A stretch of 22,048 bases of DNA. Origin: Pigoraptor vietnamica. Taxonomy: Eukaryota > Opisthokonta > Filasterea. Positions 3,161 to 22,048 of the stretch are shown piece after piece. The position numbers were made by a program, and so were the translations under genes. The notes beneath the pieces were generated by a model. It saw only the letters and a list, made by a program, of their open reading frames with translations. It was not told where the DNA came from and searched no databases. Position 1 is the first letter of the stretch, and every line of letters starts with the position of its first letter. Where the stretch lies: positions 1 to 22,048 of the forward strand of contig CALSCQ010000795.1 of assembly GCA_943704525.1 (NCBI GenBank), read 5' to 3'.

Positions 3161-4716
3161 TCACTTTCGCCGCGAGAACACAACGCGGAGGCCGTTTCGC
3201 GGGTACACGGTAATGGACATGGAGCTCTCGACGGGCTCGTGGCCCGGTGCGAGGGCGACGGTGTACCGGCGCGCAATCTGCGAGAGGATGACCTTCATCT
3301 CGATCATGGCGAATTTCTGCGAATGGGAGTGGGGTTTGGGGAGAGAGTGGAGAAGATAATTTGTCAGAGACATTCTCTCAGCTGCGCAGGCATCAAAGGA
3401 GGAAGAGAGGAGGGGGGGAGGAGGGTTTGAGGGGTTACACACAAATGGTACAGCAGTGTGGCGAGAGATGCCATACGAGGTACAGTGCGGTGTGCGTGAT
3501 AGCAAGCCCCCCAACTCACCTGCCCAATGCACGACTTGGGACCGTGGCCGAAGGGGAGGTACGAGCCTGGCTTCGGCGGCGGAAGCGCCTCATCCCATCG
3601 ATCGGGATCGAATGCGTCTGGCTCGGACCAAAGCGCGGGGTCCCAGTGCGGGTGCGACAGGTGCGCGAACACGCCCGTCTGCGCGCGCGTGTGTGCGTGG
3701 CATGTAGCGTGTGAGCGGCAATGGCGAGAAAGCGTCGGAGCGGTTGCAGAGGGCAAAAAAAAAAAAACACACTGTGCCATTCAGCGCGACGCGAGGAGAT
3801 GCCCAAATCCCTGCTCGCAAATCGCCACGCCCCACTCACCCCCTTTGCAATCGGAACGCCGTCAATCACCGTGTCGCGGAGCACTGTGCGCGACGTGAAT
3901 GCGACGACGGGGTGCATGCGCAGAGTCTCCTTCACGAACATCTCGGCGTACTTGAGCTCGGACACCTTTGCAAAGTCGAGGCCGGCGGGCGCGGGTGGAG
4001 TGGGAGCCGACGCCCCGAGCACGTCCACGGCCTCTGCGGCAAGCTTGTCGGCAAGGTGCGGGAACTGGGCCATGCAGTATACGGCCCAGCTCAGCTGCGC
4101 GCAGGGCGGGAAGGGTGTGGTCAATATATATGCGGGTCGGTGGCAAAGACAACGGGGGAGTGAGAATTGGTCCGTTGGGGAGTGCTTCTTGCGTGTGCGT
4201 GTAACCGGCAACAACATATATAGAGGGCACTTCACGAACCGAATTCGATGTCGTCTCGTGGCCCGCGAGGTGCGACAGGGTTAAATGGAAACAACGTTCA
4301 AGGATCCGCCGAGAGCGCGCCCATGTTGCGCACACCAAAGCATGCACACAGACGATCCAATTCAGGACGCAATGACACAAGACGTGTGGCGGATATGAAG
4401 AACATGACGAGCTCCTCGAGGACTTCGGCGAGAGACAGCTCGTCCGCAGAGCCGTCGCGAGAGGCGAGGAGGAGGTCCATGAGGTCGCTCTCCTTTCCCA
4501 CTTCGTTCGTATTTCCCCCCTCCTCGCGCTGCGCCAAGCGTTGCGCGAGGACGCCGCGCAAGTGTTCCTTGATGAGGGCGATCCCAGCCGCAAACTCGGC
4601 ATTGTCGGCGAGCATCTGCGAGAGATTTGAACTCGGCCCTTTAGAGATTGTCGGCCCGCGGGCGCGAAGATATTCCACTCAATGACAGCGTGTATGCGCG
4701 CTTGCGTGTGTGTGTG

Positions 4717-4761
<45 letters not shown>

Positions 4762-4824
4762 GTGTGTGTTTGTGTGTGTGTGTGTGCGTGTGCGTGTGCG
4801 TGTGCGTGTGCGTGTGTGTGTGTG

Positions 4825-4856
<32 letters not shown>

Positions 4857-6028
4857 CGTGTGCGTGTGCGTGTGTGTGTTGTGTGTGCGCGTGTGTGTGG
4901 GGACAGTGTTGCACACTACGATGTCTTTGCGGGATGGTGGGAGAAGGGTCAGTCCCCACGATGCACACGTGCTGCACCACTGCGCACACACCCAGCGCCA
5001 CAGGAACGGCGGAAAGGACATTCGCATTTGAACGCCAATCATGACGGTGCGCACGGCCTGCTTCAGCGCCACCGCCTTCGCCGAAGTCCCCGAGAACTCG
5101 GTCGCAAAGGCCGCCTTTCCGATAATGTCCGCGGCGATGCTCGAAAACTCTTGCGTGACCTCAACGGGGGTCGCTGTCGTGTGGCGGAGTGTGTGCAGTC
5201 AAGGGTGGCGTGTGAGTGCAAGTGGGTCAAGAGTGGGATAGCACAAAGAAGAAGTGCGCGCCGTGCGCCGTGTGTCGTGTGCGTGGACGCCCGTTTTTCT
5301 TTGGAATGATAGGGAAACCCGGGGAATTGTCAAGGGGTTACGCATAGTGTGACGAAGGCCTGCAGGCACGCACGTGTGTGTGCCGGCGTATGCACGCGCG
5401 TCACAGTACAGGCGGAATGGCGCAACACCCACCCTTCTCGCACGCGGCGTCCCATTCCGCCAACGTGCGCGTGATGCGCCTGTCGGCAAGCGTGCACACC
5501 GACCTCAGCTGCGTGGGATAAAACGCCGGCTGCGCAAAGCGGCGGTGTCGCTTCCACTCGTCGCCGTACAGGACGAGCAGGCCCTGCGACACGACGCCAA
5601 AGGGATCCGCGAAGAAAGCATACGCCCCAAAATCATCGTGCGATCCCTCGAGGATACGTCGAATGGCGGACGGCGACGAGAACACGGCGACGGACCCAAA
5701 GGGTGTTGAGAAGGCGTACGAAGGGCCGTGCTCGTTCTGCCACTTGCGGAGGAGGAGGTGCAGCGTGAGGCTCTTTCCGGCCTCTTGCAGATCGGGAAGG
5801 GAACCGACGAGAAAGCGCCCCTTGGGACCGGGAAGGGGCGGTCGCGGCGGGGGTCGCACGCGCCGAAGTAACTGCGATTTTCGAGAAAGCGGTGCCGAGT
5901 GAGTGAAAACTTGAGCATGTGCACGTGTGACAGTCCACTGTGTCCGGCCTGCGAGGGCACGGTCGTTCACCCACCGTGAAGAGCACGGCAGCAAGACCGA
6001 GCACAAGCACGAAGGTAAGCGACGCCAT
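3161..6028 (-). CDS. Cytochrome P450 mono-oxygenase, membrane-anchored (microsomal type)
   Basis: Eight exons: 6028-5975, 5871-5433, 5173-4992, 4615-4397, 4269-4240, 4094-3840, 3678-3520 and 3316-3161. They total 497 residues, the usual P450 length. A heme-thiolate enzyme that uses NADPH-P450 reductase to insert oxygen into lipophilic substrates; the substrate cannot be deduced. Seen in order: a hydrophobic N-terminal anchor (residues 1-18) followed by a proline-rich hinge ([12 protein letters not shown]), typical of ER P450s; C-helix WKRHR (W124-R128); I-helix oxygen-binding LAGHETTS (299-306); K-helix ETLR (E364-R367); FDPDRW in the PERF position; and heme loop [10 protein letters not shown] (436-445) with ligand C443. 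The start has a GCC ATG G context. All junctions keep phase. The exon 4/5 junction needs an AT-AC intron. Intron 3 holds a long CA tract on the sense strand. The family number (CYP clan) was not assigned. Confidence 0.95.
4240..4269 (-). other. 30-nt micro-exon encoding the P450 oxygen-binding motif
   Basis: This exon of exactly ten codons encodes [10 protein letters not shown]. It lies between the AT-AC intron and a GT-AG intron (donor GTTCGT, acceptor GCGCAG at 4095-4096). Both borders are phase 0, so skipping it would leave the frame open but remove the I-helix residues needed for catalysis. Confidence 0.8.
4270..4396 (-). other. U12-type AT-AC intron in the P450 gene
   Basis: A 127-nt intron that begins ATATCC and ends GTCGCAC on the sense strand. 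Joining at these borders gives [12 protein letters not shown], the expected P450 I-helix, with no phase change. No AG dinucleotide occurs in the intron between the donor and the exon, so a GT-AG model would have to delete the oxygen-binding motif. A TTTAAC branch-like element ends about 10 nt before the acceptor, and a closer consensus match, TCCTTGAAC, lies further upstream. Donor positions +7 and +8 deviate from consensus (G, C instead of T, T). Confidence 0.8.
4704..4900. repeat. Interrupted TG/CA microsatellite in P450 intron 3
   Basis: About 200 bp of alternating TG with CG interruptions (blocks of TGCG) on the plus strand, lying wholly within intron 3 (4991-4616) of the minus-strand P450. 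Pure purine-pyrimidine alternation of this length can adopt Z-DNA. The many apparent Cys/Val or His/Thr frames across it are artefacts. Confidence 0.95.
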
Positions 6029-9596: not shown

Positions 9597-9693
9597 TCAC
9601 ACACACGCACACACACACACACACACGCACACACACACACGCAGCACACACACACACGCACGCACGCACACTCACACACACACACACACACAC
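9597..9693. repeat. CA/TG microsatellite
   Basis: Alternating CA with occasional CG and AG interruptions over about 95 bp. It is intergenic, 5' of the unrecognised minus-strand gene. Confidence 0.9.
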
Positions 9694-10828: not shown

Positions 10829-14246
<3,418 letters not shown>

Positions 14247-15373: not shown

Positions 15374-15490
15374 CCGGGGCACTGCCGTTACCGCCTGTTA
15401 CTCTGCACGTGTTTTGCGACCTGAAACTGCCATCTCGACGCAAATCTCATTTTTTCCGCGCATTCCTTCGTGCGCTGCTGCGTTCTTCGC

Positions 15491-18400
15491 ATGGGGCGTG
15501 GAGGCGGCAAGCGGGGAGCGCCCGCGCGTGCCACGGGCGCAGAGAGCGTCCCTCTACGCGCGCACGACGCCACATCACTCGCGGCGGTCGAGTCGCTCGC
15601 CTCCTCCGCACAGGCCCTCCACAGTAACCGCCTGCGCGATCCCGTCCTCGCGCTCGTCGACTCGCTCCGACGACGCTTTGACAGCGATGCGGCGGGTGTC
15701 TCGGCGCAAAAAGCGGCGATCGAGGGTCTTCGCGCTCCACTCTCCGCAGCCGCGCGCGAGGGAGGGGACGAGTTGCAGCCGCCGGTGCTCGGCGTGTGCG
15801 GTGCGTTGTGCGACCTCTACTTTGCCCCGCGGCAACAGACGTGGGCGCGAAAGGCAATTCTACAGGCGCTTCTCGGTGCTAACGGCGCCGTCGCGTCGGG
15901 GACACCGGGCCTCGTCCCTTCGGCATCCCGCTCGCTCGTGGCGCGCATCCACGTGCACAGGGAAACGCCCGACGACCTCGCGCAAGTGGGCGCGGCACTC
16001 TCCCATCTCTTGGACTCTGGCGGCGCGTGGGGTCTCGCGGTTGCCGGCGCGTGCGTCGTGGACGCCGTCTCTCTCTATGCATCGCTGCTGCGCGACGGGG
16101 CGTGGCTCGCTCGCTCGCACGGAAACGCAACAGAGGCTCTAAAGGGGTGCGTGCGCGTGCTACAAAAGCTGTCGGTGCCCGTTTCGCGCGCGCTGCTGCA
16201 ATCGACAGCGTCGAGGGATGACGCGTCTCGCGCCACTGCGCTCGCCGTGTGCGACGCCGCCGCGTCTTCCTTGGGCATGCTGTGCGGTGCCACGGACGAG
16301 GACGCCGCGGGCGTGGGGACGCTCCTCTTGGCCGGCCTGTGCGTGGGCACGTGTCTCTCGATGCTCGAGCCGTCGCACGCGCTGCCGTCCGCTCTCGCGC
16401 GCCTCCTGCTGCCCGCTGCGCCGTGCGACGTCTCGGCCGTGTGGGAAGTGTTGTCGGCACCTGTCGCCAACATTCGCGTTCAACCGCACAATAATTTGGG
16501 TAAATGCAGCACCGAGTGGCGCGGTCTATTATCGCTCTCGCACGTCCCCGCACTCGCTCTCATCCGTGGTGTGCTGTCGTCGGTGCCTTTGCAATCGCTT
16601 GCGTCCGCGACGTTTTCCCACTGGAGAAGCGCGCTTGCCCCTCTCGCTGGCGCTGAGAAGGACGCCGCCGCGCGCGTGCTCGATGCACTTGCGAGAATGG
16701 AGCCTCCGAGCGCGCTCGTGCACGTGCTGATGGCTGTGCCCGTGTGTCTCCTCTCCCACGCAAACGTCGTCGTCGCGGGTCTCGCCACGAAGACGGTCTG
16801 TGCGTGGCTCGATGCGCTCAGCCGAAACGCGCCCAACACCGATGCCGATGTTGCCGTGGGTGGTGGTAGTGTTGGCGCAGACCGCATGGAGCCTGATGTC
16901 GTCGGAGTGGCAGCTGAAAGCGCCGTCGTCCCTCTTTCTTCAATGAGAGAAGAGGGGGTCCCTGCGCGAACCGACGCCGCCTGGCTGCCGGCAGTTTCAT
17001 TGGCATCGTCAGAGCCGTTTGCGTCGCTGTGTTTTGCGCACGCGCGCGCTCACTGGGACTCGCCCGACGACCACCTCCAGGCCGCATCCCGCGACCTCTA
17101 CGTCCAGTCGCTCGACGCCGTCGGGTCCGTCGCCGGCGGCGCTTTTGCCGAGGCGTGCGCCGCGCGCCTTCTTTCCCTCCACCCGCGCGTGAGAGTGCGC
17201 TACCGCATGCTGGCACCCACACTGAAGCACGTGACCTCGGTGCGGATTCTGGACATGTGCCCGTCCCTGCCCTCCGAACTCCTCGCTGCGCTCGCGTCGA
17301 ACCTCCTCACCGCGCCGGCGACCGAAGCGTACGATGCGCTGCTGCGGCGGACGGGCTGCGACGCCGCCGCATCGACGCAGTGGTGGATGGAGCGCTTTTG
17401 GCCGCTCCTCGCAAACGCCCTCCGATTGCCTTCGAGCACGTCGGACGGCGAGGATGAGGACGAGGCCGAAGCGCGCGCGACCGTGCGAAAGACGCTGACG
17501 AGCACGTGGCTTCCGCGCACCCTGTCTGCGCTGCCGGGCGTCGCAGGGCCCTTGCTGGACATCGCGCGCGAGGGCACTGCCTCGCGGGACGAAGACGGCC
17601 TCCGCGTGTCCGTGGCAATCCTTCGCGCCGTGCGTTCCGCGGGGCTGCTGTCGGCGGGCGCGGGGGCGGTGGCAGGTGATGGGCATCCATTCGGTCCCAT
17701 TGCCGTCGACTCTCTCGTCGCGGCTGCAGAGTCTGCGGACGACGCACTGCGCCTGGACGCGGCCGCACTTGCCGCCGTGCACCCGCGGCGGTCCGAGGGT
17801 CTGTCGGAGGCCGAGTGTCGCGTGCTGGCGGCGTTTGTCGCTGCAAACGGCAACAGTCCCTCGACGTACTTTCGGCAGCAGATGATGGCGACGTTGCGCG
17901 TGGCGGTGCTGAGAGTGAGGGACGCCGTCGCGGCGATCGACCGCGACAGCCGTCAAGCGGCCAAGAGAAAGGCCGCTGTCGGTGCCGACCCCATCGCCGC
18001 CGCAGGGACGACTACCGAGAGCACGTTGGAATCGGAAGAGGGCGCCCGCACGGCCGCACGCGCGCGGATGGTCGCGTTCTCCCGGTGGCTGCGCGACGTT
18101 GCGTGCGCGTTCCTCTACCCCGGAGGGAGTTTCCAGCGGAGGGCTGTCGGGCTGCGTCTCGTCTCTCTGCTCTTCGAGGCCTTTGGTCCCGAGAGCGGGG
18201 GGTGCCTTGCTGAAATGGGCGGCGAGGGCGCGCAGCAGCTAACCGTCTCGGGCGCGCTCTGCGTCTCTCTGCTCGGGTGCATCGACACGACGTTCGAGGA
18301 AGTGAGCAGCATGTCGCGTGGGCTGCTCGTCACGCACGTGCTTGCGTGCGCGAGGGCGGATCCCGCCTCGGCGCTCGCCGGCTCGTCCCTGTCGGACCCG

Positions 18401-21400
18401 ACTCCCTTTGTTCGCTTCGCGTGGCCCCTTCTCTCTGCCGTCCGCGCGGCCGACACGCTCAGCGGGTCGAATTGGCTGCAGTTTGCTTTCGAGGTATGGC
18501 CGATGGGGCTCGATGCCCACGTGTGCGCGTGTGCGGGCAACGCGTGCGCGTGTCCCGCCGACGCTGCCCTTTGCCTGCTCTCGTCGCTGGTCGACGGAAT
18601 CGAGGCACAGCTGGCGACGGCCCGCGGGGACCTCGTGTGCGCCGCGCGTTCGCAGCCGATGCACGGGTTCCTGCTCGCTGCTCGCAAGTGCCTCGAGGCC
18701 GCTGCGGACTTTCACTCGCGCACGCGCGTGGGAGACGCCGCCCTGCCTCTCTGGCGACTCCTCTTGGGGCGCGCTGCGGGCGTTGCACGCGAGTGCATGT
18801 CGTTTGTTCTCGGCGTTCTGTCGGGCGGCTCTGCGTCCATTCCGGACTTTGCAGACATTGAAGTGTCGCTGGGCGAGGCTGTCGCGACCAGCGCAGGGAC
18901 GGACGCCGGGAGCGGCAACGACGAGCGCGACCGGATGTACTCGTGCCTCTGGCTTACGCTGAGAGAGTCGTCGGAACTCATCGCGTCGACCGTCGCCCTG
19001 TTTCCGCTGGAGCCGCCCGCCCAAGCGCACGCGACAACAACAACAACAACACGCGACGCACGACAGGGGTCCACTGCCGTGACGAACGCTGCCGAGGCGT
19101 CACCACAAGGGCAAGACGGACCGGTCCACGCGCGCAAGCGGCAAAAGCACGAGTCAGCAGAGCCGGCGTCGTCTGCGCCCGAGGGCACCTCCCGCTGGCT
19201 AGTCTCCCTCTCTTCCATCGCAGAGTGCGGCGCCGCCTTCTTGTCGCTCCTGACGAGCTGCCGCCACCGCGGCGCCATTGAGACGGGCGCGGCCGCGTTC
19301 GCGCGCGTGTGCCGGCGGCTGCTCGGGCCTGCGGAGGGCGGGCGATACGAGGCGGTGTGCGGCGGATGGCTGGAGCACGCGCTGGCACACTTGGAGAGTG
19401 CTGCGTCGATCACGCGAAGGGGCGCTGGCATTCCGCTCAGCGTGCAGGCCGTGCTTGGGGGCGACGCCTCGCAGGGTCGGCGACTGGCGCGGCCGTGCAT
19501 CGCGCGGTTGGTGGCCACGGCATCGGCGCCCGTCGCGCACGGTGCCGACCCGAACATGGATCTCCCGCAGGTGAGATGAGAGATGCGTGTGCGCGCGCGC
19601 TGTTACTGTCGGAGCTGTGGGAAATTATGGGCGCGCTCGCATTTTGAAAATTCTCAAAAAAGCGGGTTCGGTCATTGGTGTGTAACGCTCATCGAAGCAC
19701 ACGCTCCTTTTCGCCTCAGGTGCGCGCGTGCAATTGTCTGCGGGCGCTCGTCTCGGACGCCGTCGTGGGACCCGCCATGCACCCTTTCTCTGGCGAACTG
19801 GCCGCGCTTGCCCTCCGCATGATGCGCGCCCCCCTTTGGCCCCTGCGCAACGTCGGCCTCCTTCTCTACGGAGCCGTCGCAGCGCGAATCATCGGAAACA
19901 AGAAGCGAGGCACGGTCACGTGTCGCGAACTCGTCGCCATGCACCCGTCCCTTCTCGCCGTCTTTGAGGCTCAGCTGGGGGCCGATGCGCACCTGTCCCC
20001 GCATCCGGGAGTGTTCCCGACGCTCGCGCTGCTGTCGCGGCTTCCCCCGGACTCTGGCGAGGGGGCCGCACGCGACGACGGCAGCGCCGCAGCGGCCGAA
20101 TCGGTGTCGGACGTCGACTGCCGCCTCCGCGCGCTGCGTGAGAGCGTCCTGGGGCACACGGCGTCGCCGATTGCGCAGGTGCGGCACGTGGCGGCGCGCG
20201 CGATGACGGGCTTGTGGGCGCCGTCCGAATTTGTGTCGCTGTGCCGCGCTCTCCTTGTGGAGGCGGTCCTCGAACCCGCGACCTCGCGAAACCGCGCGCA
20301 CGGAGCCCTGCTGGCGTGTGCCGAAATCTTGCGCTGCGCCGAGGAAGACAGGCGGGTCGAAGTCGCAAAGTCGCTGGCCGCTGTTCTTTTATCCGAGCCC
20401 TCGGCGTGGTGGACCGCACATGCGTGTCTCGTGACGAGAGCGGCCGCCGTGAATCTCCTGCGCGAATGCGTCGCGGTGTGCGCGTCGTCCGCCTCGAGCG
20501 CCGATGATGGCACCGGGCGGCTGCGAGAAGTGGTGGCGATGCTGCGTGGGTCGGTGTTCCCCGCGCACCCGTCAACAGGCGACGTGACCGCCCTCATCGG
20601 CTGGTGGGAATACGCCGGCGCCGTTGTGCGGCTCGCGCTGTTCGCGGCTCCCTTGGACGGACAAGACGTCGAGGTCGTCGCGTGCGACTTTCTTCGTCGC
20701 GGATGCGCCGACGTGCGTCGTGCGTGCCTCGGCGTGCTTGCGGAGGGCCCTGCGGGTGTCGCAACGACGGCTGTCGGTCGCGCGTGCGTGGACATTGTGG
20801 TCGAGGCGGCCGGCGAGAAGCGTCCCGAGGACACGAACGCCGCGCTCTCGGCCGTTCTCGCGCAGGCGGACTGGCGGGAAAGCGTCGCGGGCAACAACAA
20901 CGGCGACGACGATTTTTGGCGCGCGGGCGTCTGCGCGCTTGAGGAGGCAGCAGAAGGGAGAGAAGGAGGCAGCGTGGCGGCGTCGTGGCTTGCGGTGCTG
21001 GGTCGATTGGTGGCTGACGCGCACGCTCTGCAGTCGCGATTTTTCAATCGGGCGAGTGCGTGGGCGTCCTTCGTCGCTGCGTTTTCGTCGCCGTCCCGTC
21101 CCGGCACGTGCCGCGCGGCTGCGACGGCGTCCTTGCGGCGCGCGGGACTCTTCGTTCTCCGCGAGCTCTCGCGCACCGGCGACGACGCTGCGCTCGCCCT
21201 CTGGGACGCCGTCTTTGCGCTGCTACAGGACGAGGACGACGGCGTGCGTGAGGGGGCCGCAGCGTTCGTCTCTTCGTGCAACGGTGCAATGGGTTCGGGC
21301 GCGGCAGAGTCGTGCCTCCAGCACTTTGCGCTCTCCCTGCGAACGGCCCGCGACGTGTGCTGCGGCTGGCTCCCCGCACATGTTGCTGCGCCTTACTTGC

Positions 21401-21927
21401 TACGCCGCCTGTCTGTGGGCGTGGGGCCTCTAGAGTCTGTCGGCGGCGCGGAGCAGACTCACGAAGACGACGGTGCGGCGCAGGTGATCTTTGAAGAGGA
21501 GCCAGCAAACATGTTCACCGAGGGGATCGCGGACGCGCAGCAAGACGCCCGTGCACTGCGTGGGCTCGTGGAGCGCTCCTCTGACGTCCTTATGCACGAC
21601 GCCGCTTTGGCCTCTCGTTTGCAGCGCGCGGCGGCGTCCGCTGCCTCTGAGATCGCGCGCTTTGCGGCCTCGCAAGACCGGCCATCGACCGTGAGGCACG
21701 CGCCCACATTCGCGTCCGTTTATCGCCGTCTTTGCATTCTGTGGGCTCTTCGCGGGCTCGTCGACGGCGACGGTGCCGCGGGCATTCGCCATGCGTGTGC
21801 CTGTCTGCAGCAGTGCGCGAGGGACATGCATCCCCTTGTGCTTGCGGCTGCGGCAGATGTGGACGGAGGGACGGCCGGGGCGTTTGGCGTCGGATTTCTG
21901 CTGTGCGATCCGCCGGTGCTGTCGTGA
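15491..21927 (+). CDS. THADA: THADA/Trm732-family protein (tRNA 2'-O-methylation cofactor, DUF2428)
   Basis: Two exons, 15491-19570 and 19720-21927, join in phase 0 (DLPQ then VRACNC) to 2095 residues; human THADA has about 1950. The yeast homologue Trm732 partners the methyltransferase Trm7 (human FTSJ1) to methylate position 32 of tRNA. Seen: long alpha-helical, HEAT-like alanine/leucine-rich sequence throughout, and the DUF2428 signatures YSCLWLTLRESSELIAS (from about residue 1149), HRGAIETG (H1259), TRRGAGIPLSVQA (R1309) and, in exon 2, APLWPLRNVGLLLYGAVAARI. A low-complexity insertion inside the domain (residues about 1183-1230) has a threonine run and a basic ARKRQKHE stretch that could act as a nuclear signal. 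The start is the first ATG; its context is only moderate (C at -3, G at +4). The gene has one intron, against twelve in its neighbour Rpt2. Confidence 0.93.
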
Positions 21928-21937
21928 ACGAGCGCAC

Positions 21938-22048
<111 letters not shown>

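Follow-up and report, generated by a model that had tools for sequence, protein, structure and literature searches.

An AT-AC intron of apparent U12 type in a P450 gene and a minor 5' splice site putatively altered across the genome

On the minus strand of the 22,048-nt stretch of DNA analyzed here (the window; contig C313 in an assembly that totals 32,526,649 bases over 1395 contigs) lies a P450 gene that raises a simple question: what removes an intron that interrupts the I-helix motif and contains not a single AG dinucleotide? The preliminary description had read it as an AT-AC intron of apparent U12 type. In the text of PMC2846911, a single consensus serves for all species covered, with a 5' splice site of RTATCCTTT (ATATCCTTT) and a branch site of UCCUUAACU, and RTATCCTT is used as the rule. 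We examined how far the join at the I helix is forced by the sequence, whether the assembly encodes a minor spliceosome, and how the donor of this intron compares with others in the same genome.

The join at the I helix

Joined together, the eight exons encode a protein with a single Pfam match (PF00067, E 2.5e-80, residues 32-479), in which the P450 domain, the I-helix motif and the heme motif are all present. Introns 1-3 and 5-7 are, all six, GT-AG (Table 1). The best solved relatives among the PDB matches listed are CYP4B1 and LUTEIN DEFICIENT 5, which we take to belong to the CYP97A family. The three PDB alignments listed, two to LUTEIN DEFICIENT 5 and one to CYP4B1, cross the intron 4 join without a gap. 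A plasmid search with the P450 gene gave no match.

Table 1. Positions and makeup of the features discussed; coordinates are those of the window unless a locus is named
Feature	Position	Strand	Basis or remark
P450 gene, 8 exons, 497 aa + stop	3161..6028	-	gene model, Pfam p450, PDB matches
Exon 1	5975..6028	-	then intron 5974..5872, GT-AG
Exon 2	5433..5871	-	then intron 5432..5174, GT-AG
Exon 3	4992..5173	-	then intron 4991..4616, GT-AG
Exon 4, ending ...EELVMFF	4397..4615	-	join enumeration and gene model
Intron 4, AT-AC, apparent U12 type, 127 nt, phase 0	4270..4396	-	join enumeration and gene model
5' splice site ATATCCGCC	4388..4396	-	9-mer identical in 7 of 8 AT-AC sibling introns
Branch-site candidate B, TCCTTGAAC, the consensus with an extra A	4296..4304	-	26 nt before intron end
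Branch-site candidate A, TTTAAC, well placed, weak sequence	4280..4285	-	10 nt before intron end
3' splice site GCAC	4270..4273	-	sequence
Exon 5, only 30 nt, encoding 10 residues	4240..4269	-	then intron 4239..4095, GT-AG
Exon 6	3840..4094	-	then intron 3839..3679, GT-AG
Exon 7, with the 11-residue heme-binding motif	3520..3678	-	then intron 3519..3317, GT-AG
Exon 8, including the stop codon	3161..3316	-	gene model
GTCCCAYAAG copies	L001 1429; L002; L003	+; -; -	start 72 nt (U12), 67 nt (U6atac) and 67 nt (U4atac) before the RNA
AT-AC sibling introns			PDEase_I (L013), kinases (L103, L106), tectonic (L010), HSBP1 (L016), C1orf109-like (L009), SGF29 Tudor (L005), lysine methyltransferase (L004)
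GT-AG sibling introns			Arf (L097), MAP-kinase-like, two introns (L112), HEAT (L036), SHQ1 (L133), ARS2 (L111), PDE-delta (L127), WD40 (L128), cofilin/ADF (L129), cation ATPase (L130), RING (L131), DUF3402 (L135)

We enumerated the possible joins at the I helix over 60 donor and 110 acceptor positions, keeping stop-free joins with 40 nt or more removed. Among the resulting 4461 joins, the 13-residue I-helix motif arises only from the AT-AC join 4397|4269 or from a CA-CA join slid by one base (4398|4270). Further stop-free AT-AC joins exist; none of them gives the motif at the proper spacing. Every stop-free GT-AG (8) or GC-AG (2) join ends at the AG at 4255 and loses AGHE. The preliminary description had claimed that a single join restores the P450 motif and that, with no AG in the intron, no GT-AG join could keep it. 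Both points are confirmed, the first with the one-base slide as its sole equivalent, and the coordinates and the ATATCC and GCAC ends it gave are exact. Judged on protein homology, the join holds as described.

Read on the minus strand, the intron runs ATATCCGCCA...CCCTGTCGCAC, with GTCGCAC as its terminal letters. ATATCC at 4396..4391 fits the RTATCC start of a U12-type 5' splice site, and the AT...CAC termini fit the AT-AC/YAC form of U12-type introns. Positions +7 to +9 are GCC and not the TTT of the published rule, a departure that, like the weak branch site, was absent from the preliminary description. The resulting motif, RTATCCGCC, occurs once in the window, exactly at the intron 4 join (0.08 copies expected; one copy in 8 of 100 shuffles).

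The branch site is the weak point of this intron. Neither candidate, TTTAAC or TCCTTGAAC, equals the consensus TCCTTRAC. A branch-to-end distance of 24-26 nt, like that of candidate B, is found in 3 of the 20 sibling introns described below. When U12 was paired to the branch region of intron 4, 64% of 500 shuffles were as good or better.

Two more P450-like genes are present in the genome, on C1129 (L118) and C1256 (L120). In L118 the I-helix motif EEVDTFMFEGHDTT is uninterrupted within a single open frame, so the position of intron 4 is not common to that gene. The window also contains GT/CA microsatellites at 4706-4899 (within intron 3 of the P450 gene), 9598-9693, 11641-11725 and 21939-22048, and a large THADA/Trm732-like gene at 15425-21927 on the plus strand, some 2140 codons long and divided between two open stretches.

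Minor-spliceosome components in the assembly

We searched the whole assembly for snRNA genes with Rfam models, taking the gathering scores as thresholds. One gene was found for each of U12 (C1296, 73.8 bits; gathering 53), U6atac (C932, 81.4 bits; gathering 33) and U4atac (C1072, 64 bits; gathering 53). These RNAs fit one another as minor snRNAs should, with 13 pairs in U4atac/U6atac stem I, a stem II, and a U12/U6atac helix I. Because the U4atac gene and one of the sibling introns (L013) both lie on C1072, the snRNAs and the introns are tied to one organism.

For U11 RNA, the Rfam model had no match in the assembly at the default setting or at E 10, a result that does not in itself show absence. 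A pattern combining a predicted GGCGG 5' end with TGAG and an Sm-like site gave 7 matches, compared with 5 for its reverse. A U11-48K-like gene was found on C1271. Its CHHC finger scores 28.2 bits against a cut-off of 21.1, with a short model for which 1 of 14 control genomes also gave a score above the cut-off; about 370 residues after the finger the gene encodes ELMAEARDYKRRRQKY. The best PDB match is human U11/U12 48K (whole-sequence E 2.7e-4), made up of two individually weak stretches, the finger and ELMAEARDYKRRRQKY (i-Evalues 43 and 0.13); the next is gametocyte-specific factor 1, also a CHHC protein (E 0.0041). The search for minor-spliceosome parts that the preliminary description had proposed was thus successful for U12, U4atac, U6atac and a gene resembling U11-48K, and unsuccessful for U11 RNA. 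A genome with no minor-spliceosome components at all, which would have spoken against a U12-type intron, is not what this assembly presents.

Upstream of all three snRNA genes lies the sequence GTCCCAYAAG (Table 1), with no further exact copies in loci L001-L136 or in the window. It looks like an snRNA promoter element of this organism and could serve as a guide to the U11 gene.

Sibling introns and their donors

Across the genome, RTATCCGCC occurs 459 times, compared with 90 for the reversed pattern, although part of the excess among these 459 sites is coding sequence. RTATCCTTT shows no excess (87, compared with 96 reversed). We took the first 100 RTATCCGCC sites listed, unselected for branch site, and sought CCTTRAC 40-350 nt downstream. 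It was present in 19 cases in the sense orientation (9 of 46 plus 10 of 54), in 2 antisense and in 5 in the reversed string; at random places in the same loci, the figure was 259 of 4000. An earlier tally (14 of 52 and 11 of 55) was set aside because it took in loci chosen by branch site. As a rough extrapolation, the genome may contain some 60-90 minor introns with the exact RTATCCGCC donor and a consensus branch site.

We also searched with most of the donor left open. With only ATATC, TCCTTRAC and YAC fixed, 13 matches were obtained (1 for the reversed pattern), and in 6 of them ATATC is followed by CGCC, giving the start ATATCCGCC. The GT-AG version, in which GTATC, the branch site and the acceptor were fixed, yielded 19 matches (5 reversed), 8 of which have CG at +6 and +7. 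Not one of the 32 matches from both searches has CTT at +6 to +8.

Candidate introns were then judged by their protein products, with Pfam scans of 48 joined peptides representing 46 candidate introns; an intron was counted if a domain match crossed its join. The first batch came from 45 listed sites, of which 24 were picked by eye and 20 submitted to Pfam, with 10 added later. Also added later were open-search matches with A or G at +6 (5 of the 19 GTATC matches) and other leftovers with an open join. The branch site served to select all siblings, and for 7 the full donor did as well; the acceptor and reading frame of each were chosen by eye among a few open joins. A domain spans the join in 20 of the 46 candidates, 8 AT-AC and 12 GT-AG, termini that formed part of the search (Table 1). 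The cross-join matches of L106 (just under) and of the second L112 intron are below the Pfam cut-off; for the RING gene L131, zf-C3HC4 is above its cut-off and the best-scoring family below.

The remaining candidates behaved in several ways. A Pfam match is present and does not cross the join in L027, L008, L067 and L126, nor in L075, where the join falls at the border between two NOMO domains. There was no Pfam match for the joined peptides of L072, L031, L104, L123, L068, L134, L006, L007, L011, L012, L014, L015, L124, L132, L136, L137, L138, L141, L109, or L140 as first read, and L139 offered no open join. The Urb2 match of L125 (E 3.8e-4) crosses the join and was excluded as weak and below cut-off. 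In L140, at 49-206, the donor GTATCGACG from the GTATC search gave no Pfam match; GTATCCGCC, 60 nt upstream, used with the same acceptor, gives a WD40-like peptide (E 2.6e-4 to 0.01, all below cut-offs), and this locus was left out of the 20 siblings.

Among the 20 siblings, the donor has C at +6 in 19, G at +7 in 17 (C in the other 3), C at +8 in 16 and C at +9 in 17; T occurs at neither +7 nor +8. The searches in which +6 to +9 were free supplied 13 of the 20 (L004, L005, L009, L010, L013, L016, L127-L131, L133 and L135). This subset has G (10) or C (3) at +7, C at +8 in 9 with no T at that position, and C at +9 in 10. The other 19 of the 32 open-search matches gave no cross-join match with the donor as found; in 10 of the 19, +6 is A or G. 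The siblings have CCTTGAC or CCTTAAC as their branch sites (TCTTGAC in L097), ending a median of 13.5 nt from the acceptor (range 10-26). Since U12 retains GUAAGGA unchanged, branch recognition with these sites looks standard. The preliminary assignment of the P450 intron to the U12 type is supported, given minor snRNA genes in the same assembly and sibling introns with like donors and branch sites.

Individual siblings vary. L128 and L131 begin GTATCCCGCC, with the CCGCC block shifted one base away from the splice site, and their Pfam matches cross the joins. The cation ATPase intron, L130, has T at +6 and retains G7 and C8. Two loci bear on cilia: L010 encodes tectonic, by Pfam, and L031 a WDR19-like peptide, recognized by eye. 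The presence of tectonic suggests a ciliated cell, and the organism probably bears cilia.

A proposed variant of the donor and the U6atac letters opposite it

With GCC at +7 to +9, T absent from both +7 and +8 throughout the 20 siblings, and no excess of RTATCCTTT, the sequences argue for a variant and against a canonical member of the U12 type. Intron 4 resembles the canonical introns of PMC2846911, as its text describes them, in its place among AT-AC and GT-AG ends, in RTATCC at +1 to +6 and in the minor snRNAs of its genome, and its siblings resemble them in the branch site CCTTRAC and a branch-to-acceptor distance of 10-26 nt. It differs in that +7 to +9 are mostly GCC instead of TTT, U6atac is altered at positions 12-14, and the P450 branch site is weak. 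Apart from the +7 to +9 rule and that branch site, intron 4 is by its sequence U12-type and shares in a variant of the minor donor that extends across the genome.

U6atac carries GAGCCGAGAGAAGG in place of the Rfam consensus GAAAGGAGAGAAGG. Its letters G10 A11 G12 C13 C14 G15 stand against GAAAGG, so that A12 A13 G14 have become G C C. The pairing register comes from suppressor experiments reported in the text of PMC4980772, in which donor CC5/6 pairs with U6atac GG14/15. In this register, G7 lies opposite C13 and C8 opposite G12, restoring both pairs, and C6 lies opposite C14, where a pair is lost; the net effect is two pairs gained and one lost. For the organism's own U6atac, the computed duplex was -2.5 kcal/mol with its own donor and -0.9 with the published one; the Rfam-consensus stretch gave -3.3 with the organism's donor. 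The organism's U6atac thus favors its own donor over the published one and, for that donor, is no better than standard U6atac. Pairing energy alone therefore does not support co-evolution, and because the third U6atac change unpairs +6, the case that donor and U6atac co-evolved is suggestive and goes no further.

Some readings would remove the intron from the minor class. AT-AC introns removed by the major spliceosome are a known rare class, with donors like ATAAGT. AT-AC termini alone are no proof of U12 type and the branch site here is weak, but we consider this explanation of intron 4 very unlikely, since its donor contains TATCC and the same 9-mer opens introns with near-perfect U12 branch sites. 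The 1395 contigs of the assembly and the very short exon 5 might point to a broken gene or an assembly error at the I helix. That is highly improbable: each of the eight exons has an open frame, together they make up a complete P450, and the donor is the recurrent minor donor of the genome. Hardly credible at all is an ordinary GT-AG intron in a gene whose P450 motif has diverged; its eight stop-free joins are available, but all cost the protein AGHE, a core P450 element, and it is the AT-AC join that is gap-free against solved P450s.

A more serious alternative accepts the U12-type introns as real and holds that TTT drifted to GCC with the G+C-rich composition of the genome (about 60%), the changes in U6atac being unrelated. 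This is possible, if in our view somewhat doubtful. G+C is 0.61 in the window and 0.59 across the fetched loci, U6atac position 14 is mismatched to C6, the own-U6atac duplex is no stabler than the Rfam-consensus one, and two donors (L128 and L131) carry the block one base later. Drift, however, predicts G or C at random, whereas the open-donor siblings have G at +7 in 10 of 13 and C at +8 in 9 of 13, each the complement of the U6atac base it faces (13 and 12, respectively), and the organism's U6atac pairs worse with the published donor than with its own.

Our preferred reading, which we hold with high confidence, is that intron 4 is a U12-type AT-AC intron, one of a group of minor introns, spread over the genome, in which the donor has shifted from RTATCCTTT to RTATCCGCC. 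In the mechanism we propose, U11 would select the donor by pairing with CCGCC, and U12 would pair with the branch site through its GUAAGGA stretch. U6atac would then displace U11 and pair with T2, T4, C5, G7 and C8. C6 of the donor may be retained for U11, so U11 is predicted to have GGCGG close to its 5' end.

Donor and U6atac altered in matching fashion have a parallel in the engineered P120/U6atac pairs of PMC4980772, whose text reports P120 CC5/6GG with U6atac GG14/15CC as a suppressor pair and that such re-pairing can restore splicing. Those pairs were made by hand, in cells, at +5/+6; here the change is natural, lies at +7/+8 and leaves +6 unpaired. The text of PMC10639083 treats minor splicing across eukaryotes, including Physarum, Blastocystis, Rhizophagus and Cyanophora, lineages that are likewise unusual, there in how many minor introns they have or in the balance of subtypes; Cyanophora is termed possibly transformed because U11 alone was found. 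The passages considered here cover numbers, termini, phase and snRNA presence and contain no replaced +7 to +9 consensus. In the openly readable article texts searched, among them PMC10639083, PMC2846911, PMC4980772, PMC9887622 and PMC7789003, we found no minor 5' splice-site consensus besides RTATCCTTT.

We lean toward the view that this lineage rewrote recognition by its minor spliceosome, with RTATCCTTT replaced wholesale by RTATCCGCC, U6atac A12 A13 G14 by G C C, and U11 predicted to carry GGCGG, so that most of its minor introns would escape programs trained to find RTATCCTTT. Among signals in eukaryotic genes, the 5' splice site of minor introns is generally regarded as one of the best conserved. 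Replacement of +7 to +9 in the AT-AC and GT-AG subtypes alike, alongside changes in the U6atac letters opposite, would be a natural experiment on how a splicing code moves without its introns ceasing to function. Where a lineage is unusual, surveys that score RTATCCTTT can arrive at too few minor introns, and gene finders that assume GT-AG would break the P450 gene and other conserved genes of this genome.
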